Origin: Arthrobacter sp. CDRTa11
GTDB taxonomy: Bacteria; Actinomycetota; Actinomycetes; Actinomycetales; Micrococcaceae
Assembly (NCBI RefSeq): GCF_026427775.1
Contig: NZ_CP044532.1
Location: 4,092,001 to 4,156,000, forward strand
DNA length: 64,000 nucleotides
Direction of reading: 5' to 3'
Positions within the stretch are counted from its first letter, which is position 1. Each line of letters opens with the position of its first letter. The notes beneath the pieces were generated by a model. The model was not told the origin of the DNA and searched no databases. It saw only the letters and a list, made by a program, of their open reading frames with translations. This document shows, in pieces, positions 44,710-60,113 of this stretch. The position numbers and the translations under genes were made by a program.

Positions 44710-44794
44710 AGTAGACCTGCACCTCCGGCCCTATCGGGACCGGCTGCACCGTCACTGATTCACCGTTTTTCCGACCCAACACGAGGTACTCACC

Positions 44795-45676
44795 GTGGCC
44801 ACAGCCGCACAATGGATCCAAGGCGCCCGCCTCCGCACTTTGCCGGCGGCGATCGCCCCCGTACTGATCGGCACCGCCGCTGCGTTCGAAATGGATTCGT
44901 TCCGCCCGGTCAATGCCGTGCTGGCGGCCCTGGTGGCGCTCCTCCTGCAGATCGGCGTGAATTACGCCAACGACTACTCAGACGGCATCCGCGGCACGGA
45001 CGACGACAGGGTAGGCCCGCTGCGCCTGGTGGGATCAGGAGCGGCCCGCCCCGAACAGGTCAAATATGCGGCGTTTGGTGCGTTCACGGCAGCCATGGTG
45101 CTGGGTCTGGCTTTGGTGATCATCACGCAGAGCTGGTGGCTGATCCTGGTGGGAGTAGGGTGCGTCCTGGCTGCCTGGGGCTACACCGGCGGCAAGAACC
45201 CCTATGGCTACAAGGGCCTGGGCGATGTGTTTGTGTTTGTGTTCTTTGGCCTGGTGGCCACCCTGGGCACCACGTACACCCAGGCCGGGCAGATAAACCT
45301 GGCGTCCATCATCGGCGCCATCGGGACCGGGCTGATTGCAACGGCCCTGCTGATGGCCAACAACGTCCGGGACATTCCCACGGACATGCGGGCAGGCAAG
45401 AAGACCCTGGCTGTCAGGCTGGGTGACAAACATGCCCGGGAAAGCTACGTGCTGATGCTGGCCGTGGCAATCCTGCTGGTGATTATCCTGGCCCCGGGAA
45501 GGCCATGGATGCTGATTGTCCTGCTGCTCATTCCGGCCTGCCTGATGCCGGCCTGGCTCATGATTAACGGCCGCAAGCGCAAAAGCCTTATTCCGGTGCT
45601 CAAGCAGACCGGCCTGATCAACCTCGGCTACAGCCTGCTTTTCTCACTGGGCCTTGCGCTCAGCCACGGGTTCTAA
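44795..45676 (+). CDS. menA: 1,4-Dihydroxy-2-naphthoate polyprenyltransferase
   Basis: 293 residues with about nine membrane helices, UbiA family. The first Asp-rich motif is NYANDYSDGIRGTDDDRVGPLRLVGSG and the second NNVRDIPTDMRAGKKTLAVRLG. It attaches the isoprenoid chain to form demethylmenaquinone in the membrane. GAGG lies 8 nt before the GTG start. It ends 9 bp from the convergent DUF4229 gene. Confidence 0.95.
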   Translation: MATAAQWIQGARLRTLPAAIAPVLIGTAAAFEMDSFRPVNAVLAALVALLLQIGVNYANDYSDGIRGTDDDRVGPLRLVGSGAARPEQVKYAAFGAFTAAMVLGLALVIITQSWWLILVGVGCVLAAWGYTGGKNPYGYKGLGDVFVFVFFGLVATLGTTYTQAGQINLASIIGAIGTGLIATALLMANNVRDIPTDMRAGKKTLAVRLGDKHARESYVLMLAVAILLVIILAPGRPWMLIVLLLIPACLMPAWLMINGRKRKSLIPVLKQTGLINLGYSLLFSLGLALSHGF

Positions 45677-45685
45677 AGCCGGTCC

Positions 45686-46042
45686 TCAGCTGTTATCGGG
45701 GCCCTTGGCCCCGCTGTCTTGGGTCCTGCTGTCTTTGGCCCTGGGGTCTTTGGCGTCGGTGCGGATGACAGCGTCCGGGTTCGCGTCCAGGAGGGAATCC
45801 TCGGCAACCGCGTCCTCCACCTCACCCGCCGAGCGGAGCGGCTTCGCCTTGCCTGAGAACCGGTGCTGGAGCGCCGAGGCGGCCTCGTCACGCTGTTTCT
45901 GGAAGAAGAGGTAGCTCACCGCGAAGGCGATCAGGGCCGCACAGACGACGGACATCAGCGCACCCAGCCCCAGGAAATTGAAGAGCAGGAAGAGCGGCGC
46001 GAAGAGCGCCAAACGGATCAGGGAATATTTCAAAAAGGCCAC
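45686..46042 (-). CDS. DUF4229 membrane protein
   Basis: 118 residues. Two membrane helices (LIRLALFAPLFLLFNFLGLG, LMSVVCAALIAFAVSYLFF) are followed by a charged cytoplasmic tail rich in Lys, Asp and Ala. FFQKQRDEAASALQHR is typical of DUF4229, which is commonly found beside menA in actinobacteria. Function unknown. The tail contains short repeats (KDPRAKDSRTQDSGAKGPD), probably disordered. Confidence 0.85.
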   Translation of the reverse strand: MAFLKYSLIRLALFAPLFLLFNFLGLGALMSVVCAALIAFAVSYLFFQKQRDEAASALQHRFSGKAKPLRSAGEVEDAVAEDSLLDANPDAVIRTDAKDPRAKDSRTQDSGAKGPDNS

Positions 46043-46091
46043 TATTCAAGTTTAGCCGCCGCCCGCCGAAGGCCCTGCCCCGTCCGAACGA

Positions 46092-46097
46092 TAGACT
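46092..46097 (+). promoter_or_regulatory. -10 box (TAGACT) of the gene at 46104
   Basis: TAGACT ends 6 nt before the ATG; leaderless arrangement, identical box to menB. Confidence 0.55.
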
Positions 46098-46103
46098 TTA
46101 TGC

Positions 46104-46721
46104 ATGCTCTTCCGTGTGGCTCTCGCCGTCGCAGTACTCGCCATTTTTGTCTATGGCCTGGTGGACGTGATCCGCACTGACGGACGCCTCACCCGGGGCA
46201 TCTCCAAACCCGCCTGGATAGTGGTGATGATTGTCCTGCCGGTGCTTGGCGCCATCCTGTGGCTCCTGATCGGCCGCCCGCGCGGCACTCCCCAAGTCCG
46301 TCAGAATTACAGCCACCCCACGGCCCCCGACGACGACCCCGCCTTCCTGCGCAACCTGGAAGTCCGGCGCCGCAACCAGGCCGAAGCGGCCCGCCTCCAA
46401 AAGATCAAGGATGGCCTGGACGCACCGGCGCCCAGCCCCGAAGGCAGCGGTTCTGCAGGCCCAGGCCCAAGCACTTCCGGCTCGCCAGGTTCCGGCGGCG
46501 GCTCTACAGGTTCCGGCCCAGCAGGTTCCGGCGGTTCAGGATCTCCTGCTTCAGGATCCTCAGCTTCTGGATCCCCAGCAACAGGTGCCGCCGGTTCAGG
46601 AGCGGGCGCTTCAGGATCCCGCGGCGATGCCGGTAAGGGTAACGGCCCGCTGGATGAGGAAGGCGCCGGCGGTGCGGGCAGTGGCGATGCGGACGCGCAC
46701 GATACTGATGAACTGAAGTAG
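46104..46721 (+). CDS. PLDc_N-domain membrane protein with Gly/Ser tail
   Basis: 205 residues. Two helices (LFRVALAVAVLAIFVYGLVDVI, KPAWIVVMIVLPVLGAILWLLIG) and GRPRGTP identify the phospholipase D nuclease N-terminal (PLDc_N) domain, which here occurs without a nuclease. The charged segment NLEVRRRNQAEAARLQKIKDGLD follows. The tail of about 90 residues, almost only Gly, Ser, Ala and Pro (GSGS, SGSPGSGGGS), is probably disordered. It appears leaderless. The next gene starts 7 bp later, so they are co-transcribed. Confidence 0.85.
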   Translation: MLFRVALAVAVLAIFVYGLVDVIRTDGRLTRGISKPAWIVVMIVLPVLGAILWLLIGRPRGTPQVRQNYSHPTAPDDDPAFLRNLEVRRRNQAEAARLQKIKDGLDAPAPSPEGSGSAGPGPSTSGSPGSGGGSTGSGPAGSGGSGSPASGSSASGSPATGAAGSGAGASGSRGDAGKGNGPLDEEGAGGAGSGDADAHDTDELK

Positions 46722-46727
46722 GAACCG

Positions 46728-47351
46728 ATGGCCCAGCGACCCGACGGAGAACACCAGTTACCGGCTTCCGACGCCGAACCTCCGTCAGGCGGGCCGCCTT
46801 CCCCTGCCAGCCAGCCGCCTGCCAGTCCCCCTCCGCGGCCAGGGTTGTCCTACTCCGCCCCCGCTCCCATAAAGGTGACCCAGCCGCCCCCGCGGATGGT
46901 CAGGCTGGGAAGGACACTGTGGGTGTTGAGCTTTCTGTGCGGCCTGGCGGTGCTCGCATCATCATTCTTCTCCCGCGACGCCCACTTGGAGCGCCTTCGC
47001 GGCGTAGTGGACCAGATGGCGCCCGGGGCCGAAGCCGAGGCCCTGACAACGTCTGTGGCCATCGTGTTCTGGGGCAGCCTCGGCGCCATGGTTGTGGTTA
47101 TCCTCCTGGAGGCTATGGTCCTGGGAAGTGCCATGAACCAGCGCGGCTGGGCCCGCTGGGTCATGATTCCGCTGCTTCTTGCCCATATCGGCGCCATGCT
47201 GGTGGCGGGGGCGTTCCTGGTACCTGCAGACGCCACCGGCAGCTACGTGGTGCTGCTCTGGGCAGCTCAGCTGCTCCTGGCCCTCGCTGGCCTGGTGCTG
47301 CTCTTTTTGCCTTCCAGCGGGGCGTGGTTCCGCTCCCGGCAGCGGCTATAA
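46728..47351 (+). CDS. Proline-rich-N-terminus membrane protein
   Basis: 207 residues. The first 65 are rich in Pro, Ser and Ala (PPSGGPPSPASQPPASPPP). Four membrane helices follow (LWVLSFLCGLAVLASSFF, SVAIVFWGSLGAMVVVILLEAMVL, WVMIPLLLAHIGAMLVAGAFLV, VVLLWAAQLLLALAGLVLLFL). No family recognised. It follows the PLDc_N gene and converges with the dynamin-like gene at 47397. It could belong functionally to either neighbour. Confidence 0.8.
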   Translation: MAQRPDGEHQLPASDAEPPSGGPPSPASQPPASPPPRPGLSYSAPAPIKVTQPPPRMVRLGRTLWVLSFLCGLAVLASSFFSRDAHLERLRGVVDQMAPGAEAEALTTSVAIVFWGSLGAMVVVILLEAMVLGSAMNQRGWARWVMIPLLLAHIGAMLVAGAFLVPADATGSYVVLLWAAQLLLALAGLVLLFLPSSGAWFRSRQRL

Positions 47352-47396: not shown

Positions 47397-48881
47397 CTAA
47401 CGGTTCAATTGCAGCGCGGCGCATTCGGCGAGAACACCCTCACAGCTTCGCATCACCACACGGCATACATCTGCCGCGGAACGGTCCGTCAATGGGCTTT
47501 CGCTCACCATCCGCCACCGCTGCAGGCACCTGCGCGCCTCAGCACTGATCTCGTCCGTGCCTGCCTCCGGCTGCAGCCCCAGCCTCAGGTATGGTGCCGT
47601 TCCCCAGCCGCCCACCAGGCGTTCCGCTTCGTCAGCCAAATCATGGTTGAGCGCCACCCCGGTGGTGCGCAAAGTTGCCAGCAGGCGGAGTTCGCTGAAC
47701 TCATGCGCATTGACTTGTATCCGTTCCAAAGCTGCCGCCAATTGTTCGGAGCCGTCCCGCGGCGAACTTCGGAGCAGTGCCTCAACTCCCACCAGCGCGG
47801 TCCGGGCTTTCAGCGTGTCGGCCCTGGCCTGGAATTGGCGGTTCACCATGTCCAGAAGCGGATCCAGGCCGCTGCGGCGCGCCAGTTCGTGTGCCAGCGG
47901 CGTGGGCTCTGTGAATCCGCTCCTGATAAGCACCACGCCCAGCCGGATGCCGAACAGCCCGAACCGCGCCAGGAGGGAGGCCCGTGCCTCCTGGTCCAGA
48001 CCCTCGGGCACGGAAGCCCTCAGGAACCTGTCTGCTGAGAGCAGCATCCGCTCCCGGGCCGGCCGGTCCATGCCGGCAAGGAGCTGCAGAGACTCGAAAT
48101 CGGACTGCCGCAGGCTGCGGGCACTCTGCGCCAACAGCCCGGCCACCGGGACCACCCCCAATGCCAGCTTGCGCAGGCTGTGGTCCCGACGGTACCGCTC
48201 CGCAATATCCCCGGCGGAAAGCAGGGAATCGATGCGGCCGGCACCGATCTCGTCCGCCCGGGACAAGACAGCCAGGGCGTTGACGGTCCCTGACCTTCCC
48301 GCCTCTGTGTCTTTGAATGACTCAAGGAACCGAAGATCCGCTGCATGCATATGCCGCATGAGGTATATGACGGCGTCGGCCTGAGAGGGAGTATCGGCAG
48401 GGGTCAGGAAACCGGTGGACAGCGCCGACACCTTCTCGGACAGCGACGCGATCCCGGGAGTATCAATAAGCGTGACATCCCGGAGGTTCCGGGACGGCCA
48501 GTCCACCACCAGGCGATCAACATCCTCCGGGCCCAGACTGCCCAGGACGAACACGAGACGGCCATCCACGCGTTTGACAGGCAGGGCCCTTGGCTCGCCG
48601 TGCACGGGATACATGGTGATCCGAGGCGAAAGCCCGTAGCGGTACCAGGTGATGATCTTCGTCGATTCACCAGTATCGGTAGGAGCGATCTCCTCGCCAA
48701 TAATCGCGTTGAGCAGCGTGGATTTTCCTGCCTTCACCATGCCAGCAACGGCGATCCGCAGCGGTTCGGCCAGCCGCCGGGCGTACCCCTCCAATGCCCT
48801 TGTTGCTGCCGGATCATCGCGGTAGACGTGGAGGGCCTCCTGGACGAGTTCGGACACCCCTGTGATGGTCTCTTGCGTCAT
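47397..48881 (-). CDS. iniC: Dynamin-like GTPase, IniC-like
   Basis: 494 residues. The G1 motif GMVKAGKST is at 47-55, G3 is LIDTPGIAS and G4 is LSRADEIG. The remainder is helical (ERMLLSADRFLRASV, DPLLDMVNRQFQARADTLKARTALVG) and lacks a clear membrane segment. The arrangement matches mycobacterial IniC, the second dynamin-like protein of iniBAC. Its ATG overlaps the iniA-like stop by 4 bp. Dynamin-like proteins bind and remodel membranes with GTP; a partner role to the IniA-like protein is inferred. Gene symbol by analogy to mycobacteria. Confidence 0.85.
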   Translation of the reverse strand: MTQETITGVSELVQEALHVYRDDPAATRALEGYARRLAEPLRIAVAGMVKAGKSTLLNAIIGEEIAPTDTGESTKIITWYRYGLSPRITMYPVHGEPRALPVKRVDGRLVFVLGSLGPEDVDRLVVDWPSRNLRDVTLIDTPGIASLSEKVSALSTGFLTPADTPSQADAVIYLMRHMHAADLRFLESFKDTEAGRSGTVNALAVLSRADEIGAGRIDSLLSAGDIAERYRRDHSLRKLALGVVPVAGLLAQSARSLRQSDFESLQLLAGMDRPARERMLLSADRFLRASVPEGLDQEARASLLARFGLFGIRLGVVLIRSGFTEPTPLAHELARRSGLDPLLDMVNRQFQARADTLKARTALVGVEALLRSSPRDGSEQLAAALERIQVNAHEFSELRLLATLRTTGVALNHDLADEAERLVGGWGTAPYLRLGLQPEAGTDEISAEARRCLQRWRMVSESPLTDRSAADVCRVVMRSCEGVLAECAALQLNR

Positions 48882-50800
48882 GCAGCAACCACCGCCGATT
48901 CGGTCGCGAGTACCTCGGCGGCGCGGTGCAGGGCGTCCACCCTCGTGAGTTCAGCCTTGATCTCGCGGATGCGCCGGTCCTTTTCCAGCGTGAACGTGGT
49001 GGCCGCCTTTTGTGCCGCCGCCACGGAGTCCGCGAGCGACCGGTGGTGCTCGTCCGCGATCTCCGTGAAATGGTCCCGTGTGGTCCGCTGGACCATCCTG
49101 AGCCTGTCCTTAAGCTGCTTCCCCACCTGGAAGACAACGTCGTCCACCTGTCGCCGGACCAGTGCCTTGGCTTCGCCCTGGCGTCGCTTGAGCCGGGCCT
49201 CCTGGTCTTCGCGGTATGCCTTGCGCCCCAGCAGCAGTCCAGCACCCACGGAAAGCGGATTGATAAGCGCCATTCCAAAAATCCCGGTCAACAGGCCGAA
49301 CATCAGCACTCCGCCGTATGAGCCGCGCATGCCGATCAGGACCTTTTGCATGGGCTTGATGTGCCCGTCGTCCAAGGTTGGCATCTCGTCCACGGGGTCC
49401 AGGGCATCGCCTGTGTCGGCCACATGCAGCACCGGCAGGGCCACCTCGTCCTGGGAGAAGTGGTCCGCCACCTGCGCTGCCAGCCATTGAGCCCGCTCGC
49501 TCGTCCAAACGAAGGTGTCCGAAACGGCGGCGGCGGCACATTCCTCAAGCCACAATGAAAATTCCGGCCAGGTGGGGCCCGGGTCCCCCTGGTCAATGGC
49601 TGTCTCGGCTTCCCGCTGGATACGTCGCAGCCTGTCCCGCAGGTCATACTCCATGTCGGCTATCAGGTCGGTAATGCCGTCGTTGAGGGTCAGCTGCCAC
49701 CGCGCGGACCGTTTACGCAGCTCGTCGGCCTGCGCTTTGGCCTCTTCCAGGCCGGCAATCATCTGGGGTGTACCTTCCGGATCCTCCAGCGCTCCCAGTT
49801 CCGATTGCAGGGACAGACGCAAATTCTCCGTCACCGAAAGCAGGTCCTGGCTGACGGACCGGCGCTGGATGCGTTCCGCTTTCCCCACCACTTCATTGCG
49901 GAGGTGGGCCACCAGATCCGGGAAGCCTGATTCCGTGTTCAGTTCCGCGTCCCGCAGCCGCGCTGCTTCAAGCCGGAGATCGGAGGAGACGGGGAAGAGC
50001 GGGATATCCGGCGCCACCTCGGCGAGGTGGCCGCGGTCCAAGTCCACCACCCGGCGCCACTCCGGATAGAGGTCGGTCTTGGACACCACTCCAATCACGC
50101 TCGGCGTGATGCGCATGGCCTGGCGCAGGAAACGGATTTCAGGTTCGGTGTACTCCTGTGATGCATCGGAAACCAACAGCATGGCATCCGCTGTTGGCAG
50201 GGCAGTCAGGGTGGTCAGGGTATGCGTGGATCCCAGTCCCCCCACGCCCGGCGAGTCGATGACCGTCAGGCCGCCGGCGAGCACCTTCCGGGGAAGGAAG
50301 ACTTCCGCGGCCACGAGTTTCTTTCCATTTCCGGGATTGCCGCGTTCCGAGACATAGGCGGCAAGGTCTTCAATGTTGATGGGCTGGCGCTCCAGCACCC
50401 CTTCCTCGCCGGGTTCAGCGTCAACCTTGGGCAGCAGTATTGCCGCCGAGGCGCTGTCACCGTGCCGGACGACGGTGGGCACCGAGGTGGCAATGTCGTC
50501 GTCGACGGGGCACACCGGAGCGTTGACCAGAGCGTTGATGAGCTTGCTTTTGCCCTGTTTGAATTCACCCACCACGATCACGCGGATGCTGGGATCCTTC
50601 AGGCGGCGCAATGTCTGGTCCAGCCGCCTGCGAAGGTCTGCCCTGTCTCCCGCCCCCACCAGCTCAATGCCCTGCTCCACGAGCTTTGTCAGTTCGACTG
50701 ACTGGATCGGCTGAACGGGTTTGGCATGGCCTGCCTGGCCGACAGAACCCGCCGGAGTAATCCTTGTTGCCAGCCCCCCGGATGGTTGCGTTTCAGCCAC
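48878..50800 (-). CDS. iniA: Dynamin-like GTPase, IniA-like
   Basis: 640 residues. G1 is GEFKQGKSK (78-86), the switch-I Thr lies in DDDIATSVPTVV, G3 is VIDSPGVGG and G4 is VSKTDLYPEW. A hydrophobic hairpin near 505-540 (GGVLMFGLLTGIFGMALINPLSVGAGLLLG) is the likely membrane paddle, and long coiled-coil helices flank it (VRRQVDDVVFQVGKQLKDRLRMVQ). This is the bacterial dynamin-like layout of mycobacterial IniA. It lies between the IniB-like and IniC-like genes, as in mycobacteria. A hairpin at 50855-50888 separates it from iniB. Confidence 0.87.
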   Translation of the reverse strand: MAETQPSGGLATRITPAGSVGQAGHAKPVQPIQSVELTKLVEQGIELVGAGDRADLRRRLDQTLRRLKDPSIRVIVVGEFKQGKSKLINALVNAPVCPVDDDIATSVPTVVRHGDSASAAILLPKVDAEPGEEGVLERQPINIEDLAAYVSERGNPGNGKKLVAAEVFLPRKVLAGGLTVIDSPGVGGLGSTHTLTTLTALPTADAMLLVSDASQEYTEPEIRFLRQAMRITPSVIGVVSKTDLYPEWRRVVDLDRGHLAEVAPDIPLFPVSSDLRLEAARLRDAELNTESGFPDLVAHLRNEVVGKAERIQRRSVSQDLLSVTENLRLSLQSELGALEDPEGTPQMIAGLEEAKAQADELRKRSARWQLTLNDGITDLIADMEYDLRDRLRRIQREAETAIDQGDPGPTWPEFSLWLEECAAAAVSDTFVWTSERAQWLAAQVADHFSQDEVALPVLHVADTGDALDPVDEMPTLDDGHIKPMQKVLIGMRGSYGGVLMFGLLTGIFGMALINPLSVGAGLLLGRKAYREDQEARLKRRQGEAKALVRRQVDDVVFQVGKQLKDRLRMVQRTTRDHFTEIADEHHRSLADSVAAAQKAATTFTLEKDRRIREIKAELTRVDALHRAAEVLATESAVVAA

Positions 50801-50854
50801 GATCTGTCCTTCGCGTCAAGTCCATGAATGCGTAAGCACCGTAAGCGGGCAAGT

Positions 50855-50888
50855 GCCCGGCAGGAGGTTGTTGGTCCCCCTGCCGGGC
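50855..50888 (-). other. Intercistronic hairpin between iniB-like and iniA-like genes
   Basis: GCCCGGCAGG (50855-50864) and its perfect complement (50879-50888). No T-run follows on the minus strand, so it may set relative mRNA levels or stability rather than end transcription. Confidence 0.6.
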
Positions 50889-50912
50889 GTTGCCGTTACC
50901 GGGCGCTGACGC

Positions 50913-51986
50913 TTAGCCTGCTTCCGAGTGATCAATTGCGGTGTTGTTCTCAATCTCCACTTCGTTGTCCTTGATGACCGTGATGTCATCAATTTCGGTG
51001 TACTCAAACTCGTTGTCAGCAACCACCGTGTTGCCGGCAACAACTGTGTTGTCCTCGACGTTGGTGTAGTCGATGTTGTTGTCCGCGACCACGACGTTGT
51101 CCTCGATGTTGGTCTTGGTTGTTGTGGTGTTGGTTGTTGTGTTCGTTGTTGTGTTGCCCACGTTGCTCAGGGTCGCGTCGATCTCGACCTCCGTCTCCGT
51201 GGAGTGGTCATCGTTGAAGGATCCCACGATCGCCGTGTGTTCGGAGTTGTCGGTGTTGCCAACATTCTGCAGATCGGCATCGATGTCGACCTCTGTGTTG
51301 TAGGAATCGTCGACAGACTTATCCGTGTTGAAGGACTCGTCCACGTCGATTTCGGTGTTGCCAACCACTGCGTCACGGCCGGCGACGATGGAGTTGTCCG
51401 TGGAGTGATCCACCGAGTTGTCCGTGTTGTACGAGTCCTCCACGTTGAAGGAATCGTCGACGTCGATGTCGTCACCGGCCGCCATGGCCTGGTCGCCCGA
51501 GGCGATGATGGCGTCGTTGTCGAAGAACTGCCTGACGTCGCCGTCGGCCCAGATGTTCTGGTTGACTGACTGGTCGGTGATCGTGTCCCTGTCATCCACC
51601 GTTGTGGTGTAGGAGTAGTTGTTCACCACATGGTGCAACTGCTGTACGGCGTGGGCGTGGTCCTCGTGGTGTCCGCCGCCACCGCCGCCATGTCCACCGC
51701 CGTGTCCGGGGTCGCGACCGCCGGCGCCGCCGCTGCCGCCATTGTGACCAGTCCAGGCGGTGTTGCCACCAGTGTTGTACTCACGATCGAACGAGGCGGC
51801 GTTGACCGCGATGGGGGCGTAATCCAGGACGACTGGCATAGCTGCGTCCACATCTGCTGAGCAAACACCGCCAAGCCCGGCATCGTCCAGGGCCTTTTCC
51901 GGATCGTTCAGGAATTCCTGGGCGGCGACAGGGTTGTTGAATAGGCTCATCAGGAACTGGACGAGCTGATTTGCAAGAGTAGGCAT
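50913..51986 (-). CDS. iniB: IniB-like protein with Asn/Asp/Val-rich repeats
   Basis: 357 residues from ATG 51986 (GAGGT 8 nt upstream). Residues 1-60 (MPTLANQLVQFLMSLFNNPV, then EFLNDPEKALDDAGLGGV) match the helical IniB N-terminal domain. A Gly/His stretch follows (GGRDPGHGGGHGGGGGGHHED). The last 220 residues are repetitive and almost free of Lys/Arg: NTDNSVDHSTDNSIVAG, NTTTNTTTNTTTTKTN, DNVVVADNNIDYTNVEDNTV. The alternation of small, Asn/Asp and Val residues suggests a beta-solenoid or fibrous surface structure, unlike the Gly/Ala-rich mycobacterial IniB. There is no signal peptide or sorting motif. Acidic; function unknown. Confidence 0.8.
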   Translation of the reverse strand: MPTLANQLVQFLMSLFNNPVAAQEFLNDPEKALDDAGLGGVCSADVDAAMPVVLDYAPIAVNAASFDREYNTGGNTAWTGHNGGSGGAGGRDPGHGGGHGGGGGGHHEDHAHAVQQLHHVVNNYSYTTTVDDRDTITDQSVNQNIWADGDVRQFFDNDAIIASGDQAMAAGDDIDVDDSFNVEDSYNTDNSVDHSTDNSIVAGRDAVVGNTEIDVDESFNTDKSVDDSYNTEVDIDADLQNVGNTDNSEHTAIVGSFNDDHSTETEVEIDATLSNVGNTTTNTTTNTTTTKTNIEDNVVVADNNIDYTNVEDNTVVAGNTVVADNEFEYTEIDDITVIKDNEVEIENNTAIDHSEAG

Positions 51987-52022
51987 TTGGGTGGACCTCA
52001 TATCTTCTCTAAGTTTCGGATC

Positions 52023-52042
52023 GCCCGGCATCGTCGCCGGGC
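52023..52042 (-). other. Hairpin in the iniB-like upstream region
   Basis: GCCCGGC (52023-52029) pairs with GCCGGGC (52036-52042), 6-nt loop, about 37-56 nt before the iniB start codon. TTTTATTC lies just upstream on the minus strand. It may be part of the 5' leader. Confidence 0.45.
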
Positions 52043-52152
52043 TTGAATAAAACGTACGGTCCCACCCAAGGACCGGGCATCGGGTTGCGGCCCCCTACCG
52101 GGCCGGCCCCGCTAGGGGATTGCTTGCTGGGGCTTTAGGGGAAATAGGGGAA

Positions 52153-54372
52153 TCACTCCGGCGGCGGGTGCTCCGGCCCCAGGACCAGCCGAAGCCGAAC
52201 CAGGAGATCCGAGCGGTTTTCGGCTCCTAACCGGCGTCGAATCCGTGCCATGTGGTGCTCAGCAGTCCGGGGCGAAATGTAGATCGTCTCCCCTATTTCG
52301 CGGTACGTCTTGCCCTCAAGGACCAGGCGGGCCACTTCCTTCTCTCGATCGCTAAGGACGGGTGCGGCCGCCTGGCGGACGTTGTTCTCCGGTGCGGCAC
52401 CATCACGGATCTCAGAAGATGAAGATCCGGCAGACGGGGGCGCAGGACGTATTGTCCCGGTTCCGGCGGGGTTCCCCTGCGGATGCAGGTCCCGGGCACA
52501 CGCCAGCAGCCTCACCATGTCCCTGCGGTCATCGGCCCGGGCCGCTGCGTGTCCCGCCAGTCGTGCACCTTCCCAGGGCATGCCAACGGCATTAAGCCCG
52601 TGCGCGGCCTGCTCCACGGCGGCAGCCTGGAAGCGGCCGGCAAGGACTGAAACCCATGCCTTGCCTGCCCCTGCAAGCACCGCCGCCAGATGGCTGTGTC
52701 CTGCTGCCCGTACCAGTGCCGAAGCATGGGGTGCCAGGGCAGCGGGGCTCTCGTTCAGCAGTGCGGCCTGGACTGCAGCCCAATGCAGGGGCACGGCCCA
52801 GAGGGGAGGCTCGCCAAGCCCTGCCAACAGTTTCCACGCCTCGTCAAGGTAAGGCGACACCCGCCGGCTTTCCCGCAGGCGGGCACCGGCAATCATGAGC
52901 TCACCCCACGGCAACAGGCTGTAAAGATCCACCGTGGTGTGCAGCATTGCTTCCCGCGCGCGTTCCCATGCCATGACCAGGCCATGGACTTCACCGCTTC
53001 TCCGGGCGAGGCCGACTTCCAAGGTGGCGCACAGGAACTCGTCGCGCGGCACCAGTGGCCAGTGGTTCGCCTTCGAGGCCTCGTTGATGGCCAGGCGGGC
53101 TTCGTCAGGATTGTCCTGCTGCATGGCTGACCAGGCCTTAAGCAGGCATAGCCGCGGCTTGGCGGCATCACCTCCCTGGCCGGCAGCGATAGCTGATCGG
53201 AGGATGGTGTCAGCAAGGTGGGGTTCCCCGGTGTGCAGCGCCAGCAGCGCGGCCAGCGCCCCCGGGGTGTCCGGAAGCGGGTGCGCCGCTCCAGCTGAGT
53301 TGAGCAAGTCGGAAGCATGAATCAGCACGGGCAGCCCTTGGTGGGGTTCGCTGGCAAGTGACTCAAGGATGCCCTTTCCCGTCTGGGTCAGGCCTACAGC
53401 CAGCAGCGTGGGAGAAGCAGGCTCTGAGTCCAGGGAAAACATGGTTTCGGCGCCCTCCCGGTTACCGCATCCCACCAAAGCCACTGCGGCGAGGGGCGCT
53501 GAAGGCCCCACTCTCTCCCGGCCAAGCCAACTGTAGACATCGGCGCCGCGGGCCAGCATGCCACGCTGCGCCCACACCGCGGCTGCCACGTCCACCCCCA
53601 GCCGGAGGTCGGGAGCAATCGGCGCCACCAGAAGTTCATCAACGATGCGTCCGGCAGCATCCAGGTCCCCCGTTGCTGCGGCAGCCTGCGCACGGCGGGC
53701 TGCCGTTGCCAGCTCATCTGCCCCGGCCAGCAAAGCTTCGTCATAGAGTTGGAAGGCCAGGCCCGGGTCACGCTCGAGCGCTTTGTCCGCCGCTTTTTCA
53801 AGTTCCTCGGCCACCCGGGGATCTGCCAGGCCGCTCCGTGCCAGTTCGCGGGCGAAATCACCCAAGGGCCGCCCTTCCGCGGCGAAGTTTGATACAAGTT
53901 CCTTTTGCAGCGCGTGGATCCTGGCCGTCGGTGTAACGGTCAGGAGGGCGTGCTGTGCAGGACCTACTACCGTGCCGCCAGGCCCCAGCAGGCCTGACGC
54001 TTCTGCCCTGGCCACCAAGGCGTCAAGGCCCTCCACTTCGGAGCTTTCCAGCCTCCGTTGCAGTTCCCGCGGCAGTGGGCCAGGCAACGTGAAGCCAACT
54101 GACAGGGCGAGCAGCAGCTCCCGCACAGCGGCATTTTCACCCCGCAACTGCTTCGCCATGTACTCGGCGCTGCCGTGCATTGGCGGCTGGACCCTTGGCT
54201 CTTCCGGCCCGCTTGGAGGGCTTTCAGCGCCCGCGTTCTGGATTCCGTTTTGCAACCCGACCTCTGATAGGGAGCCGCCGGCGCTTGCAGGGTCAGTCAT
54301 CGGTCGGGTCTGCGGTTCTTCCGTGCCATGACCCTGGACGGCTCCGGAAGGCGCTGTATCGTGTCCGGTCAT
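52153..54372 (-). CDS. LuxR-family transcriptional regulator with long helical sensor region
   Basis: 739 residues. The C-terminal HTH (LSDREKEVARLVLEGKTYREIGETIYISPRTAEHHMARIRRRLGAEN) is a clear LuxR/NarL domain. The remaining 650 residues are Ala/Leu-rich helices in TPR-like pairs (AFQLYDEALLAGADELATAARRAQAAAATGDLDAAG). I see no Walker A motif, so this is not a full LAL/MalT-type NTPase. It starts 3 bp after the Hsp70-like gene and precedes the iniB-like gene, as a regulator gene (IniR) sits near iniBAC in mycobacteria. It probably controls the cluster; the signal it senses is unknown. Confidence 0.85.
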   Translation of the reverse strand: MTGHDTAPSGAVQGHGTEEPQTRPMTDPASAGGSLSEVGLQNGIQNAGAESPPSGPEEPRVQPPMHGSAEYMAKQLRGENAAVRELLLALSVGFTLPGPLPRELQRRLESSEVEGLDALVARAEASGLLGPGGTVVGPAQHALLTVTPTARIHALQKELVSNFAAEGRPLGDFARELARSGLADPRVAEELEKAADKALERDPGLAFQLYDEALLAGADELATAARRAQAAAATGDLDAAGRIVDELLVAPIAPDLRLGVDVAAAVWAQRGMLARGADVYSWLGRERVGPSAPLAAVALVGCGNREGAETMFSLDSEPASPTLLAVGLTQTGKGILESLASEPHQGLPVLIHASDLLNSAGAAHPLPDTPGALAALLALHTGEPHLADTILRSAIAAGQGGDAAKPRLCLLKAWSAMQQDNPDEARLAINEASKANHWPLVPRDEFLCATLEVGLARRSGEVHGLVMAWERAREAMLHTTVDLYSLLPWGELMIAGARLRESRRVSPYLDEAWKLLAGLGEPPLWAVPLHWAAVQAALLNESPAALAPHASALVRAAGHSHLAAVLAGAGKAWVSVLAGRFQAAAVEQAAHGLNAVGMPWEGARLAGHAAARADDRRDMVRLLACARDLHPQGNPAGTGTIRPAPPSAGSSSSEIRDGAAPENNVRQAAAPVLSDREKEVARLVLEGKTYREIGETIYISPRTAEHHMARIRRRLGAENRSDLLVRLRLVLGPEHPPPE

Positions 54373-54375
54373 GAG

Positions 54376-56340
54376 TTACACCGCCGGTTCTGTCGCTGAC
54401 ACCGGATCCGCAGGCGGTGGGGCGGGGGCAGTGGCGGTTGGGGCCACCGTAGCGGGCGGCTGTGTGGTGGGCGGCGGCGGAGTCACCGTGGCGGGCGGCT
54501 GTGTGGTGGGCGGCGGCGGAGCCACAGTAGCTGGTGGAGTTGCCGTAGCGGGTGGTGGCGCCGTGGCTGGTGGAGGTTCGGTAGCCGGCGGGGCTGTGGT
54601 GGTCGGATTAGCTGTTGCTGGAGCCGATGGTGTGGTGGGCGAAGCCGTTCCCGCGGCCTGGGTAGGATCAGCCACTGCCGCCGCACCGCCGCCTTCACCT
54701 TCAGAAGAACTGGCGGGGCCAACGGAGGTACCACCCGCGGCAGGTTGGGACGATGGCCCGGAAGTTGGCTTGCTGGTGGGCACCGCCGCCTGCAGTCCCG
54801 TGCCACCGACAGGCTGGCCGACGCTCCGCTGGGCGCTGGCCTCGAGTCCCGGCTGTCCAGCCTGTGTCCCACCGGCGGCATCGTCGCTGCCAGCTTCGGT
54901 GGTGCCGGTGGAGCCGTTTGCAGCCTCCGGCCCCGTTCCGGCACCCGCTTCCTGCGGAGCGAAGATCCCCGTCAGCGTGGCAATGCCCCCAGGACTCTGG
55001 GCCGCGGTGGCAGTCAGCACCGTAAAGAGCGCGGCCACTGCGGCGACGGCGGTCACCCGCACGGTGGGCCTGTTCGCGTGGGTGCCAGGCTTCCGGGACC
55101 GGCTGGCGCTGTGGGCTGCCAACGCTGCGGCAGTAGGTGCCGCTGCGGGAGCGGATGCCGCCACTCCTGCGGCAGCATCCTTGCCGGCAACCTCCTGGCC
55201 GGCAACCTGCTGCGCCGCAACAACCTGCTCCGCCGCAACAACCTCATGCGCCGCACGATCCTGCGCGCGCACGGCTGCAACGGCAGCCCCGCAGCAAATG
55301 GACGACTTGGGATCCGCGTCCACGGCTATGGGCCTGTCCAGCGTTTCGGAAAGGAGCTGCGCCACCAGAGGGATGCGGGAGGATCCTCCGATCAGCAGCA
55401 CGGCCGACAGGTCCCCGGGGTCGAGTCCCAAATCCTGAAGGGAGCGCTCCAATGCCTCCACGGTCTCGCGGACAGGCTCCTCGATCATCGCCTCGAACTC
55501 GGACCGGACCAGCCGCACCTGCTGCTGGACTCCTGGCAGCATCACCGCGATGCTTGCCTCGCTGTCAGAGGAGAGGGCTTCCTTGGCTTCCACGCATTCG
55601 CGCCGCAGCCGGGCCAGCGCTGCGCGTGCGGCGGGTAATTCCGGGTCCAGGCCAGCGAGGGCAGCACCCGTGTGTTCGGCCACATGGCGGAACACAGCCG
55701 CATCAAAATCAGCGCCGCCCAGACCCTCAATTCCGTGGGGGCGGCCCAGGAATTCGAAGTGGCCGGCGCCGGCCTTCCTCAGGATGGCGGTGTCGAATGT
55801 CCCGCCGCCCAGATCGTAAACGGCGATAGTGCTGCCGTCCTCCACACGCACCTGGGAGGCGTAGTACAGCGCTGCGGCTTCGGGCTCGCTGATCAGGGTG
55901 ACGGAAGGCAGTCCCGCCGAGGACAGGGCATCCAGAATGCGTTTGGTGCGGTGTCCGCCCCACGACGCCGGGTGGGACAGGATGATGTTCGACGGCGGCT
56001 GCCCCTCGCGCTCCTGCGCCCGGTCCACCACCCATCGGGTCATGGTGGCAAAGACATCTTCGGCCGGCAACGACAGGGTGCCCACCGAAATTGGAACGGC
56101 GTCACCCACCCGGCGTTTGAATTCGCGCACCACCCGCTCAGGGGAGTCAAGGCCCCTGCGCTCGGCGGCTTCCCCCACCAGGACTGGCCCTTCGTCCGGA
56201 TAGAACACCACAGAGGGCACAGCGGTTCCGCGGAGCCCCAGCGGGAGGCTCTCCGGAACACGTGGAGCATTCTGATCAATTCGGATAACTGCAGCGGCCG
56301 TAAAACTGGTCCCGACATCGACGGCGAGAACGTAGCTCAT
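54376..56340 (-). CDS. Membrane-anchored Hsp70/DnaK-like ATPase with Pro/Thr-rich tail
   Basis: 654 residues. Residues 1-360 are an Hsp70-type actin-fold ATPase: VLAVDVGTSFTAAAV (phosphate 1), EPEAAALYYA, VYDLGGGTFDTAIL (phosphate 2) and VLLIGGSSRIPLVAQLL (adenosine). The canonical substrate-binding domain is missing. An Ala/Gln-rich linker leads to a membrane helix near 445-465 (VAAVAALFTVLTATAA), and about 190 residues of Pro/Thr/Ala-rich sequence, including PPPPTTQPPATV repeats, follow. Predicted topology: ATPase inside, tail outside. GAGGT precedes ATG 56340. It is first in the cluster with the LuxR and iniBAC-like genes. Confidence 0.88.
   Translation of the reverse strand: MSYVLAVDVGTSFTAAAVIRIDQNAPRVPESLPLGLRGTAVPSVVFYPDEGPVLVGEAAERRGLDSPERVVREFKRRVGDAVPISVGTLSLPAEDVFATMTRWVVDRAQEREGQPPSNIILSHPASWGGHRTKRILDALSSAGLPSVTLISEPEAAALYYASQVRVEDGSTIAVYDLGGGTFDTAILRKAGAGHFEFLGRPHGIEGLGGADFDAAVFRHVAEHTGAALAGLDPELPAARAALARLRRECVEAKEALSSDSEASIAVMLPGVQQQVRLVRSEFEAMIEEPVRETVEALERSLQDLGLDPGDLSAVLLIGGSSRIPLVAQLLSETLDRPIAVDADPKSSICCGAAVAAVRAQDRAAHEVVAAEQVVAAQQVAGQEVAGKDAAAGVAASAPAAAPTAAALAAHSASRSRKPGTHANRPTVRVTAVAAVAALFTVLTATAAQSPGGIATLTGIFAPQEAGAGTGPEAANGSTGTTEAGSDDAAGGTQAGQPGLEASAQRSVGQPVGGTGLQAAVPTSKPTSGPSSQPAAGGTSVGPASSSEGEGGGAAAVADPTQAAGTASPTTPSAPATANPTTTAPPATEPPPATAPPPATATPPATVAPPPPTTQPPATVTPPPPTTQPPATVAPTATAPAPPPADPVSATEPAV
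54452..54529 (-). repeat. 39-bp coding tandem repeat, two units
   Basis: Units at 54452-54490 and 54491-54529 are nearly identical and encode PPPPTTQPPATV-type repeats in the extracytoplasmic tail of the Hsp70-like protein. Confidence 0.85.
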
Positions 56341-56497
56341 AGGTACCTCGAAAAAACATGCGGCGAGTCGCCTGCAAACTGCATCACAGGCGAGCTCCAA
56401 CCAACGTAGCATCACCCTTTCGCGGGCGACACCCTTGTTGCTACACCGATTAGTTATTTAGCGGCGGCACCTTCAGCGCTATCCGAGTAACCCCTGT

Positions 56498-57619
56498 TCA
56501 GAGGCCTGAATAGGAGTGCAGACCATTAAAGAATTGGTTCACAATCGTGAAGTTGAAGATGACGCAGAGGTAGCCGACGATCGACAGCCAGGCGGCGCGG
56601 GTCCCCGTCCAGCCGCGGGTGGCACGGGCGTGAAGGTACCCGGCATAGACCACCCAGATGACGAACGTCCACACTTCCTTGGTGTCCCAGCCCCAGAAGC
56701 GTCCCCAGGCCTTCTCGGCCCAGATGGCACCGAACATCAGGGTGAAAGTCCAGCCAATAAAGGCGATCGCGTTGATCCGGTAGGACAGGTTTTCCAGGCT
56801 CAGGGCAGACGGCACCAGGCGCATGAAGCCCAGCTTGTCCGCACCACCTGCAGCCACGGTCTTCTGCCGGTGCGCCTGCACCAGCTGCAGCGCGGACATG
56901 GCAAAGGTGAGGGTGAACAGGGCCGATGACAACACGGCAATGGAGACGTGGATGATGAGCCAGTAGCTTTGCAGGGCCGGCACCAAGTGGCCTACCGGGG
57001 TCCAGTACGCCACCGAGGCGGCCACCAGCATGATGATGGACAAGCCCACCACAAAGGTCCCCAGGAACCTGAGGTCCCGCCGGATCAGCGCCAGCAGGAA
57101 CACGGCAACGGCCACAAAAGCACCGGTGGTGAGGAATTCGTACATATTTCCCCAGGGCACACGCCCCGCGCCCAGCGCCCGCGTGACTACACCGGCAGCG
57201 TGGATGAGCACGCCAAGCACTGTCAGCGCCACCGCCACCCGCGCCGGAACGCGCCGTTCGGCCGCATAGCGCATGTCGGCGTCGGCAGTCTTTCCCGCCC
57301 CGGAAGGCGCGCCGCCCTGAATGGTGACCGACGACGACGGCCGCTCGGCCCGTCCGGCCGGCCCGGCCAGGTGCGATTCAGTCCTGTCGGCGCCCGCCCC
57401 CGCAGCAGCTGCTCCTGCGCCCGCACCTACACCTGCACCTACAGGGAATTTCGACGTCCGCTCCGCCTGGGCCGCTTTGAGGTCAACGGCGCGGAGGGCT
57501 TTGCTGCTCTTCGCCAGGTCCCAGGCGAAGGCGATGAAGGCCACGGTGTAGGTGCCGGCCGCGAGCAGCATAAACAGCTCGCTGTACTGGCCCATGGTTT
57601 CGTTGATGGCGAAGGGCAT
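56498..57619 (-). CDS. ccsB: Cytochrome c biogenesis protein CcsB/ResC
   Basis: 373 residues with about eight membrane helices. The haem-handling segment is FWGWDTKEVWTFVIWVVYAGYLHARATRGW, with conserved His in LHARA and the WGWDxKE signature of CcsA/ResC proteins. VPWGNMYEFLTTGAFVAVAVF is also characteristic. A cytoplasmic insert of about 80 residues (Gly/Ala-rich, GAGVGAGAGAAAAGAGAD) lies after the first helix. With ResB it carries haem across the membrane and ligates it to apocytochrome c. Its ATG overlaps the resB stop by one base. Confidence 0.95.
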   Translation of the reverse strand: MPFAINETMGQYSELFMLLAAGTYTVAFIAFAWDLAKSSKALRAVDLKAAQAERTSKFPVGAGVGAGAGAAAAGAGADRTESHLAGPAGRAERPSSSVTIQGGAPSGAGKTADADMRYAAERRVPARVAVALTVLGVLIHAAGVVTRALGAGRVPWGNMYEFLTTGAFVAVAVFLLALIRRDLRFLGTFVVGLSIIMLVAASVAYWTPVGHLVPALQSYWLIIHVSIAVLSSALFTLTFAMSALQLVQAHRQKTVAAGGADKLGFMRLVPSALSLENLSYRINAIAFIGWTFTLMFGAIWAEKAWGRFWGWDTKEVWTFVIWVVYAGYLHARATRGWTGTRAAWLSIVGYLCVIFNFTIVNQFFNGLHSYSGL

Positions 57620-59358
57620 TACTGGTCCTTTTTCGGCCCGTTGGGGCCAGCTGGGGTGGTGACAGAGTCTGCGCCATTATCGTCATAACGGCTGGGAGTT
57701 TGCTGGGTTCCGGAGGACTCGTCGGCAGGACCGGCAGGCACCTGCCATTCCTCGGAGAGGAGCTTACGGAGGACGGCGGACTCGGCGGCGAGCCGATGGT
57801 CTTCACCGCGCGCCAGGAGGCCGTATTCCACCATGGTGCGGCCGTCCTCGTGCGTGCCCGTGCGAATCCAGACGCGGCGGCGGTTTACGTAGAGCGACAT
57901 GACCAGCCCCGCGACAGCCAACAGGGCAAAGATCAGGGCGTACAGCTGGCCGGGGTTGTGGTGGATGTCCACGCCCACGTACCGCTTTACGCCGTCAAAA
58001 CTGATGCTCCCCTTGCCGTCGGGCAGGGTGAGGCTGGCACCGGGCGTCAACGTGAGGCCTCCGGCCTCGAGGTTCCGGGCGTTCAGCGGAGTCAGGTCCT
58101 TGACGTTGAGCTCAAAGACATTCTGCGGGGCGCCGTCGTCCAGGCCGAGGTCCCCGTAGTACGAGTTCAACGTCAGCTGCGGGTTGAACAGTTCGGGGTC
58201 CCCGCTGAAGGACACACCTTCAGGGGTGACGAAGGCGGTGGGCAGGAAGAAGCCCTGGAAGCCCAGCTGGTCCGGCTTGGCGTCGGGAACCTTGATGACC
58301 ACCGACGAGTAGTAGTTCTCGCCCTGCAGCTTGCCCACCACAGGGCCCTGGAAAGCCACGTTGCCCGCTCCGTCGCGGACGGTGACCAGCGGGGCGTACC
58401 CGTTTCCCGTGAGGTAGATGCTGGTGCCGCCCAAGGTGACGGGATCGTTGACTTTCAGGGTTTCCTGCCGCGCCGGCGCGTCAGGGTTTTCCTTGGTGGT
58501 CACTGCTGCGGAGAAGTCGATGGGCTGGCCGAACTTACCCCTGGATTCCCGGTCAAAGGTGATGTCGAACTTATCGAGCTGGATAGAGTACGGCTGCAGC
58601 TGGCTGGACTGGAAATTGGTACCGGGCATGAATTGGTCGTAACCCACCAGGGTGTTCACGAACGTGTCGCCTTCCACCAGGATGCGCTGCCCGCTGTATC
58701 CAAAGAGCCCGCCAACCGCCACGGACACCAGCACGCCGATCAGGGATGTGTGGAACAGCAGGTTCCCCACTTCCTTCATAAAGCCGCGTTCGGCCCCCAA
58801 AGACGGCCGCGCGCCGTCGTCGTCCCTCACCTCAACACGGTAGCCGCGCTTCTTGAGCAGCCCGGCGGCGCTGTGAATAGCGTCCGACGCCGGGAGGCCG
58901 GCCGCCGCCGGCACCACCAGCGTGCCGTACTCGGGCAGGCGGGAGAGCCGCTTCGGGGTACGCGGCGGCTGGGACCGCATCGCCTTGTAATGGGCCATGG
59001 CGCGGGGCACCACGCAGCCGATCAGGGAAATGAACAGCAGCAGGTAGATGGCGGAGAACCAGGCGGACGAGTAGACGTCGTACAGCTGCAGGGTGTCCAG
59101 CAGCTTGCCGTAGCCCGGGTTGTTCCTTATGTACTCCGTGACGGTGGAAGGGTTCGCGGGGCGCTGCGGGAACAGCGAGCCAGGCACCGCGGCAACCGCC
59201 AGCAGCAGGAGCAGGAAAAGCGCCGTCCGCATGCTGGTGAGCTGCGTCCACGCCCAGCGCAGCATTTCCTTGGGGCCCAGGGCCGGCAGCGCGGCATCAG
59301 CCTTGGCTTCGGCCACCGGGGTGGAGGACTTATTCTCTGCGTTCACTCGCTCGCTCAT
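57619..59358 (-). CDS. resB: Cytochrome c biogenesis protein ResB/Ccs1
   Basis: 579 residues. Three N-terminal helices (TALFLLLLLAVAAVPGSLFPQR, WFSAIYLLLFISLIGCVVPRAM, NLLFHTSLIGVLVSVAVGGLFG) are followed by a large extracytoplasmic domain (FQGPVVGKLQGENYYSSVVIKVP) and a fourth helix (QLYALIFALLAVAGLVMSLYV). SLFPQRPANPSTVTEYIRNNPG is typical for the family. It forms the haem-delivery and ligation complex with CcsB. ATG 59358 overlaps the ccdA stop by one base; a longer in-frame extension to 59712 lies inside ccdA and is not real. Confidence 0.95.
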   Translation of the reverse strand: MSERVNAENKSSTPVAEAKADAALPALGPKEMLRWAWTQLTSMRTALFLLLLLAVAAVPGSLFPQRPANPSTVTEYIRNNPGYGKLLDTLQLYDVYSSAWFSAIYLLLFISLIGCVVPRAMAHYKAMRSQPPRTPKRLSRLPEYGTLVVPAAAGLPASDAIHSAAGLLKKRGYRVEVRDDDGARPSLGAERGFMKEVGNLLFHTSLIGVLVSVAVGGLFGYSGQRILVEGDTFVNTLVGYDQFMPGTNFQSSQLQPYSIQLDKFDITFDRESRGKFGQPIDFSAAVTTKENPDAPARQETLKVNDPVTLGGTSIYLTGNGYAPLVTVRDGAGNVAFQGPVVGKLQGENYYSSVVIKVPDAKPDQLGFQGFFLPTAFVTPEGVSFSGDPELFNPQLTLNSYYGDLGLDDGAPQNVFELNVKDLTPLNARNLEAGGLTLTPGASLTLPDGKGSISFDGVKRYVGVDIHHNPGQLYALIFALLAVAGLVMSLYVNRRRVWIRTGTHEDGRTMVEYGLLARGEDHRLAAESAVLRKLLSEEWQVPAGPADESSGTQQTPSRYDDNGADSVTTPAGPNGPKKDQ

Positions 59359-60113
59359 CAGATCGGCAACTTCACATCGGTTTGGAACCAGTACTGGAGC
59401 CCGGTCACCCAGGCGCCCCAGACGCCGCTGGCCATCAACAGGCCCAGCACGATCAGGATCGCTCCGCCGGTCCGTTGGATGGCCAGCCGGTGGGTACGGA
59501 AAAAGGACATCACGCCCATCCCGCGGCGCACCGCGAGGGCAATCAGGAGGAACGGGATGCCCAGGCCCAGGCTGTAGACAAAGGCCAGGAACGCGCCCTT
59601 GGCGGCGGACGAGCCGCCGGAGAGGCTCAGGAGCTGGACAGCGGAATAGGTGGGGCCGATGCACGGCGCCCAGCCCAGCCCGAACGTTATGCCCAGCAGC
59701 GGGGCACCCCATAGCCCGGCAGGCGGTTTGGCGTGGATTTTCGCATCACGCTGCAGCCAGCCGAAACCACCCATGAACACAACACCCATAACGATCACCA
59801 GGACACCCAGGAGCTGGGTGATCCAGGCGTTCTGGGAGCCCGTGATCAGCGTGCCGAGTTGCCCGAAGGCACCGCCCAGGAGCACAAAAATCGCGGAGAA
59901 CCCCAATACGAACAGCCCAATCCCCGCGAACATCCGGCCACGCTTCTGCTTCTGCAGGTCCACGCCGGTCAGTCCCGTGACGTAGCCCAGGTACCCCGGC
60001 ACCAGGGGAAGCACGCACGGCGACAGGAAAGACACGAGTCCGGCAAGCAGCGCCACCGGAATGGCGAGGAGCAGGGAGCCGCTCAGGATGGCTTCGGCGA
60101 AGGGGCTGTTCAC
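59358..60113 (-). CDS. ccdA: Thiol-disulfide transport protein CcdA
   Basis: 251 residues, six helices, DsbD-gamma family. The two redox cysteines are Cys33 (SFLSPCVLPLVPGY) and Cys151 (GLGWAPCIGPTYSA). The protein carries electrons from cytoplasmic thioredoxin to ResA, which keeps the haem-binding cysteines of apocytochrome c reduced. GTG start at 60113, 15 bp after resA. Second step of the resA-ccdA-resB-ccsB operon. Confidence 0.95.
   Translation of the reverse strand: MNSPFAEAILSGSLLLAIPVALLAGLVSFLSPCVLPLVPGYLGYVTGLTGVDLQKQKRGRMFAGIGLFVLGFSAIFVLLGGAFGQLGTLITGSQNAWITQLLGVLVIVMGVVFMGGFGWLQRDAKIHAKPPAGLWGAPLLGITFGLGWAPCIGPTYSAVQLLSLSGGSSAAKGAFLAFVYSLGLGIPFLLIALAVRRGMGVMSFFRTHRLAIQRTGGAILIVLGLLMASGVWGAWVTGLQYWFQTDVKLPI

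Follow-up and report, generated by a model that had tools for sequence, protein, structure and literature searches.

What a membrane-anchored Hsp70-like protein does directly upstream of a LuxR-type regulator and a set of ini-type genes is the question raised by a locus of Arthrobacter sp. CDRTa11. The locus lies in the window analyzed here, a stretch of 64,000 nucleotides from contig NZ_CP044532.1 (positions 4,092,001 to 4,156,000 of the forward strand), and comprises five open reading frames (ORFs), all on the minus strand, for the Hsp70-like protein (Hsp70L), the regulator, an IniB-like protein, and two dynamin-like GTPases (Table 1). The ORF check confirms the single strand, the 3-bp gap between the Hsp70L and regulator genes, and the 4-bp overlap between the GTPase genes, as described in an original prediction made from the sequence alone. 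We find that these five genes are a real, conserved unit and that the cluster is an iniR-iniBAC-type system outside Mycobacterium, supplemented by a membrane-anchored Hsp70 nucleotide-binding domain (NBD) protein with a disordered outer tail. It is mostly of a known kind, namely, the iniR-iniBAC kind, with the little-noticed Hsp70L partner and a variant of the regulator without an ATPase.

An iniR-iniBAC-type cluster with an Hsp70-like protein

Comparison of the window proteins with Pfam, NCBIfam, PADLOC, and PDB sequences indicates that the regulator is homologous to IniR, which is known to activate iniBAC, but lacks the N-terminal STAND ATPase. Its best NCBIfam match is NF038181 (isoniazid response ATPase/transcriptional regulator IniR; E 2e-109), which aligns over model positions 220 to 825 of 827 with 367 bits, below the equivalog cut-off of 750. 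When aligned with full-length relatives, most of which carry GxxxxGK[ST] at the Walker A columns, it shows no P-loop there. The P-loop NTPase (NOD) core of a STAND signal-transduction ATPase, kept by most relatives outside Micrococcaceae, is absent, and the parts left are the region downstream of the NTPase and the LuxR-type helix-turn-helix. Because both the cut-off and the P-loop fail, the protein is neither a full IniR nor a STAND ATPase, which bears out the earlier description of a regulator without an NTPase domain.

The IniB-like protein belongs to the family defined by NF038175 (IniB_NTERM; 72.1 bits, cut-off 40, E 2.6e-20). It consists of a helical IniB N-terminal domain, a Gly-rich linker, and an acidic Asn/Asp/Ser repeat tail; the structure model has confident helices at residues 19 to 71 only, with 260 of the 372 residues at a predicted local distance difference test score (pLDDT) below 50. 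Both GTPases contain the dynamin GTPase domain (Dynamin_N, PF00350; 77 and 48 bits, cut-off 27), and the larger one matches the solved IniA of M. smegmatis (6j72). The IniA/IniC dynamin pair follows iniB in the order B-A-C, as had been predicted. M. smegmatis IniA cuts membrane tubes in vitro (PMC6715688). The gap between iniB and iniA contains a strong RNA hairpin, both arms of which are visible in 11 of the 14 rows shown in the same-genus gap alignment. It is possibly an attenuator or a processing site and could set the level of IniB above that of IniA and IniC.

In Hsp70L, Pfam and fold checks identify a true Hsp70 nucleotide-binding fold, with the best PF00012 stretch spanning residues 91 to 357. 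The Hsp70 substrate-binding domain is absent: the Pfam match ends at residue 357, and a disordered region comes after. The order of parts is NBD, linker, one transmembrane (TM) helix, and a disordered P/T/A/G-rich outer tail, with residues 392 to 584 disordered apart from the TM helix. The 15 residues preceding this helix carry a net charge of +5, and the positive charges on its N side predict an N-in, C-out topology. The membrane-anchored Hsp70-like protein of the original prediction is thereby recovered. Its ORF starts with ATG, and a further in-frame GTG lies upstream at 56415.

Gene order and the companion of iniR

Within the genus, IniR and IniA have full-length-like matches in one and the same set of 15 genomes out of 25, and neither is found in the other 10. 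All five genes are present in the order of the window in 13 of the 14 fetched same-genus regions; in the 14th (L063), the contig stops just upstream of iniR. These regions have ccsB/resB/ccdA at one flank and, within the limits of the stretches, two small membrane-protein genes plus menA at the other. In the window, both flanks look ordinary: upstream are what we take, by eye, to be resB/ccsB/ccdA-like cytochrome c maturation genes (56498 to 60113), and downstream are presumed menE/menA-like genes and two small membrane proteins, likewise named by eye (43489 to 47351).

Further afield, we took from named genomes the loci of the 80 best of 563 IniA matches (Arthrobacter, Pseudarthrobacter, Paenarthrobacter, Agromyces, Microbacterium, Georgenia, metagenome-assembled genomes [MAGs] of Propionibacterium, and others), a set biased to near relatives because it was chosen by match to the window IniA. 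Among the 57 with at least 9 kb and at least 7 kb of flank, IniR is present in all 57 and a separate Hsp70L ORF in 56. In the remaining locus (L151, 3910 to 7989), Hsp70L and IniR stand in one frame of 1359 aa, which we do not accept as a real fusion because the junction suggests a frameshift within the low-complexity part that forms the outer tail. Hence, the expectation that the Hsp70L and LuxR genes are conserved beside ini genes holds in 57 of 57 loci.

In a phylum-wide sample of 396 genomes, the IniR family is found in 16 and an IniA-type gene (E < 1e-90) in 19; 16 of these 19 have IniR, 18 have an ini-type Hsp70L beside IniA or IniR, and one (G087) has neither. The ini system is sparse in the order of the window, since only 17 of its 396 genomes have IniR, and 50 of 69 genomes have it in the genus of G428, taken as Mycobacterium. 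For counts of adjacency and of ATPase state, we used 146 IniR loci, 138 of them with enough flank, after dropping three duplicate IniR sequences; broken, masked, or contig-cut loci (L119, L155, L136, L133, L078, and L182); IniR pieces shorter than 400 aa; overlapping second fetches (L200, L201, and L258 to L260); and G271 (L071), with two IniR-like genes. In 120 of the 138 non-redundant loci, mycobacterial ones included, the gene immediately upstream of iniR, in the same orientation, is that for Hsp70L (87 of 88 in Micrococcales/Propionibacteriales, 32 of 40 in mycobacteria, and 1 of 10 elsewhere). In 15 others it lies within about 8 kb, and in 3 it was not counted; one of the last (L227) shows a partial Hsp70L at the end of the stretch and was scored as lacking it because pieces shorter than 300 aa were excluded. 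From these counts, Hsp70L is an old and common companion of iniR that has moved away in a subgroup of mycobacteria.

The order of the remaining genes varies by group. Micrococcaceae have H-R-B-A-C as one run (H, Hsp70L; R, IniR); Microbacterium and Propionibacteriales have H-R-B on one strand, facing (B)-A-C on the other; in mycobacteria, H-R is divergent from the iniB-type genes, A, and C; and in other classes, R is near C, and H lies beyond A or C. Given these orders, H and R look like one unit in Actinomycetes and (B-)A-C like another.

Several relatives of these proteins were seen in other settings. A second Hsp70-like paralogue lies downstream of iniR or beyond iniC in L065 (10590 to 12347) and similar mycobacterial loci. 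In G240, which has no IniR match, a protein that combines an Hsp70 NBD with a WD40 region at its C terminus lies beside a divergent dynamin pair (L197, 10801 to 12864). A record titled Planococcus (L178) carries a Microbacterium-like ini locus that groups with G738 of the window's order and is probably a mislabeled or mixed assembly.

The original prediction did not recognize the combination of genes as a described system. This stands only in part: because the regulator, missed as such earlier, is an IniR homologue, most of the combination is the described iniR-iniBAC system, and a dnaK-like gene beside iniR has already been mentioned in a single remark on M. smegmatis (PMC5760070). Titles, abstract openings, and passages of the other papers found yielded no link between Hsp70L and iniR beyond that remark.

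A candidate operator and two ATPase folds

A repeated CCCCTA was first seen in the same-genus alignment of the iniR-iniB gap, where the window has three copies on the coding strand, the first two forming CCCCTANNNCCCCTA, and one reversed; an additional copy lies inside iniR at 52290. Counting upstream of longest-ORF starts and taking iniB-type ORFs of at least 150 aa, we found CCCCTA to rank 1 of 1,845 hexamers in 54 mycobacterial regions (136 seen, 6.6 expected), 1 of 1,617 in 44 Arthrobacter regions (117 seen, 3.2 expected), and 2 of 1,684 in 46 Microbacterium/Propionibacteriales regions (26 seen, 1.4 expected). Among 29 same-composition permutations in Mycobacterium, the mean count is 13 and the highest 84; ATCCCC, listed with 84, overlaps the CCCCTA site itself. 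Mycobacterium and Arthrobacter therefore have, at the sequence level, an operator-like sequence in common upstream of iniB. Chromatin immunoprecipitation in M. tuberculosis maps IniR to the DNA immediately upstream of iniBAC (PMC5760070), and for this reason we read CCCCTA as a candidate IniR box to which IniR would bind.

Clusters of the site are located at the iniB start in 46 of 48 cases across 46 Arthrobacter-group loci (900 kb) and in 5 of the 6 cases in 35 Microbacterium/Propionibacteriales loci; 10 loci of other classes have two at iniB-type starts and four upstream of Hsp70L. The six stretches without IniR contain no cluster, though L195 has a single site. Since no CCCCTA site precedes Hsp70L in the window, the putative sensor pair Hsp70L-IniR is probably constitutive and iniBAC inducible. 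A second mycobacterial Hsp70L gene has CCCCTA sites of its own upstream (L065 and L066). A sigma-70 promoter scan found none and is uninformative.

With the ATPase domain of IniR missing, the window unit has one ATP-binding fold left, that of Hsp70L. Its seven catalytic positions, which we take to be D10, T13, K71, E175, D199, T204, and D206 in Hsc70 numbering, are all intact in the alignment in Micrococcaceae, most Microbacteriaceae, and other classes. The mycobacterial Hsp70L proteins examined have 1 to 3 of the seven left: the loop-1 Asp, the Lys, the loop-2 Thr, and the second Asp are replaced, and the first loop-2 Asp is kept. Degenerate versions also occur in Zafaria, some Microbacterium, Propionibacteriaceae MAGs, G379, G612, and G314. 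As for IniR, the P-loop is lost in the Arthrobacter/Pseudarthrobacter/Paenarthrobacter and A. agilis groups and in L128 and altered in L148, and the Walker A Lys is changed to Arg in G149, G507, G751, and G542; three Arthrobacter loci (L130, L136, and L138) keep the P-loop, and mycobacterial IniR keeps the NTPase where Hsp70L is degenerate.

Across the 146 loci, Hsp70L is intact in 31 and degenerate in 49 of those that keep the IniR NTPase, and intact in 54 and degenerate in 1 (G314) of the 55 that have lost it; the other 11 have no usable Hsp70L in the stretch (9 kept, 2 lost). In this scoring, L075 counts as Hsp70L-intact, an intact copy being visible in the wider stretch L198, and L161, L182, L184, and L080 count as P-loop-positive, fitting GxxxxGK[ST], L080 with one change. 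G507 and G751 provide a fair test, in that the Lys-to-Arg change was seen first and an intact Hsp70L was then found further along. The IniR of G542 (L247), with the same change, has no Hsp70L and no other ini neighbors within the 39 kb read. On a midpoint-rooted IniR tree, read by eye and seen in part, the NTPase was lost or the P-loop changed in about five or six lineages.

A strict rule under which each locus would retain one ATPase or both is rejected by G314 (L072), which combines IniR without the NTPase and a degenerate Hsp70L. The states of the IniR P-loop and of the Hsp70L catalytic residues partly mirror each other, a trend that we do not call a rule or furnish with statistics because G314 has neither ATPase, G542 has no Hsp70L, and the losses are few independent events. 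One speculation, which we consider rather doubtful, is that a single envelope alarm can use either the Hsp70 NBD or the STAND NTPase as its ATP switch, the switch having moved from IniR to Hsp70L in Micrococcaceae and having stayed with IniR in Mycobacterium, where Hsp70L would have decayed to a pseudo-ATPase. In its strict form, it too has G314 against it, where both are degenerate. Were it true, a transcription activator would be controlled in trans by an Hsp70 ATPase lacking the chaperone domain, which would account for iniBAC reading ATP.

Table 1. Coordinates in the window of the five genes and of the features predicted in and between them
Feature	Position	Strand	Basis
Hsp70-like protein (Hsp70L), 654 aa	54376..56340	-	PF00012 HSP70, E 5e-48
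Hsp70L NBD, residues 1-364, expected catalytic residues present	55249..56340	-	Alignment motif columns; fold
Hsp70L TM helix, residues 429-447	55000..55056	-	Kyte-Doolittle 2.04
Short IniR homologue, LuxR-type, 739 aa	52153..54372	-	NF038181, GerE
LuxR-type DNA-binding domain of IniR, residues 672-725	52198..52359	-	GerE PF00196, E 1.3e-12
Candidate IniR box CCCCTA, site 1	52145..52150	-	
Candidate IniR box CCCCTA, site 2	52136..52141	-	
Candidate IniR box CCCCTA, site 3	52113..52118	-	
Candidate IniR box, opposite orientation	52092..52097	+	
IniB-like protein, 372 residues	50913..52031	-	NF038175 IniB_NTERM
Strong RNA hairpin, iniB-iniA gap	50855..50888	-	Fold z -6.6 for 112-nt gap
IniA-like dynamin GTPase, 640 aa	48878..50800	-	PDB 6j72 IniA, E 4e-144; Dynamin_N
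IniC-like dynamin GTPase, 494 aa	47397..48881	-	Dynamin_N, E 1.9e-12; pairs with IniA in relatives

Proposed function and relation to known systems

Several parallels bear on how such a unit might work. Until it is released by sugar transport, MalT, a STAND activator, stays bound to MalK at the membrane (PMC10427625). In mycobacteria, IniR binds upstream of iniBAC, and expressing it is enough to induce the operon (PMC5760070); the response to wall drugs comes after an ATP burst and depends on it, and the IniR ATPase has been suggested as the ATP reader (PMC6104191). The disordered outer tail of RsgI has been proposed, in a secondary statement, to be a wall probe (PMC13059805). Taking these together with the gene identities, Hsp70L-IniR adjacency, operator conservation, domain loss, and topology computed here, we propose, as an account that is on balance probable, that the cluster is an envelope-stress unit in which Hsp70L is a sensor or tether that holds the short IniR at the membrane and frees it on damage, raising IniB and the dynamins. 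The anchoring step rests on the MalK-MalT analogy: in resting cells, the cytoplasmic NBD would keep IniR at the membrane as MalK does MalT, and the disordered tail might form an ectodomain probing the wall space. Damage to the wall or membrane, and perhaps also the ATP level read by the NBD, would then release IniR, which would bind the CCCCTA repeats upstream of iniB, and the induced IniA/IniC pair could remodel or seal the membrane. Of this chain, we infer the physical contact, the direction of control, the signal, and the sensor role of Hsp70L with its tail. As MalK serves its transporter, Hsp70L may serve the dynamins too, because it occurs with A-C in stretches where IniR is not found (L194, L196, and L242). 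The envelope-stress role that the original prediction had put forward we likewise grade as likely.

A number of observations weigh against the proposed unit or against its operator. Hsp70L accompanies the dynamin pair in the three IniR-free stretches just named, so control of IniR cannot be its sole job, and 2 of 159 Hsp70L proteins (L073 and L168) have no hydrophobic segment C-terminal to the NBD. Of the 40 Mycobacterium loci with enough flank, 8 do not have Hsp70L immediately next to IniR, and in 4 more short-flank loci an iniB-type gene, not Hsp70L, is directly upstream of iniR. The operator is weak in Microbacterium/Propionibacteriales, where 29 of 51 iniB-type upstream regions have no CCCCTA site. 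In 44 mycobacterial loci, 52 of 92 site clusters lie at an annotated iniB-type start and 40 elsewhere; among the 12 of these 40 shown, most are upstream of the Hsp70L gene or in the gap between an iniB-type gene and iniA, and annotation may have missed iniB. Further, the CCCCTA tandem is present a single time in the 5.16-Mb genome, as is the backwards control pattern.

The IniR-free stretches, one of them with the order A-C-H and a 4-bp overlap of C and H (L194), are also what speaks for Hsp70L being mainly a structural or energy-supplying partner, or a membrane recruiter, of the IniA/IniC dynamins, its place before IniR merely ensuring co-production. The other classes of the phylum agree with this, having Hsp70L near A/C and not adjacent to R. 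We nonetheless think it unlikely, given that Hsp70L in Actinomycetes stands in line with IniR, in 120 of 138 loci directly upstream of it, and often on the strand opposite to A-C (Mycobacterium and Microbacterium). Hsc70 is the chaperone that uncoats clathrin, and by analogy Hsp70L might serve IniB or the dynamins as their dedicated folding or disassembly chaperone, which would suit the true Hsp70 fold and the intact catalytic residues of Micrococcaceae. This seems to us distinctly improbable: linker, TM helix, and disordered tail stand in place of a substrate-binding domain, and the gene is kept in the mycobacteria examined and several other lineages where most catalytic residues are replaced.

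Least probable is an antiphage defense module of dynamins plus regulator. PADLOC matches of the dynamins to LeoA/LeoBC (27 to 41 bits) and the patchy presence in the genus (15 of 25) would fit it, but the other PADLOC matches amount to just 17.8 bits (helix-turn-helix region of the regulator) and 10.7 bits (Hsp70L), with none for IniB. An IniA-type gene is on 1 of 72,556 plasmid records, the same genes flank the cluster in other members of the genus within the length of their stretches, and the candidate operator is common to the drug-induced mycobacterial system.

The envelope-stress unit would have some wider meaning, iniBAC being in use as a reporter of wall damage in mycobacteria (PMC5760070 and PMC6104191). 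Our counts suggest that a membrane-anchored Hsp70-like partner, hardly mentioned in the literature found, is encoded at most IniR loci, including many of those in mycobacteria, which points to an overlooked component of a bacterial cell-envelope alarm. The CCCCTA repeats supply a concrete candidate operator, and the natural variant without the IniR ATPase, occurring in a soil genus, makes the sensing of damage directly testable there.

Among known systems, the cluster is closest to mycobacterial iniR-iniBAC (Rv0339c; iniB-iniA-iniC), with which it shares an IniR homologue, an IniB N-terminal domain protein, dynamins in B-A-C order, and CCCCTA repeats upstream of iniB-type genes. It differs in that IniR is without the N-terminal NTPase, Hsp70L is catalytically intact in its residues and not degenerate as in the mycobacterial versions examined, the genes form one colinear run of five rather than two divergent units, and the IniB tail consists of acidic Asn/Asp/Ser repeats. 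In its presumed way of working, it resembles MalT-MalK of the E. coli maltose system, in which a LuxR-type activator descended from STAND proteins likewise has an ATPase at the membrane as its partner; here, however, the partner is an Hsp70 NBD unrelated to the ABC ATPase of MalK, and the regulator has no NTPase core. A similar functional likeness links it to the RsgI-type anti-sigma factors, membrane proteins whose disordered outer tail is a proposed wall probe (PMC13059805), although there is no sigma factor and no homology, and the cytoplasmic part is an Hsp70 NBD. With the DnaK/Hsp70 chaperones, finally, Hsp70L has in common the fold of the nucleotide-binding domain and its catalytic residues, but it has a membrane anchor and a disordered tail where these have the substrate-binding domain.

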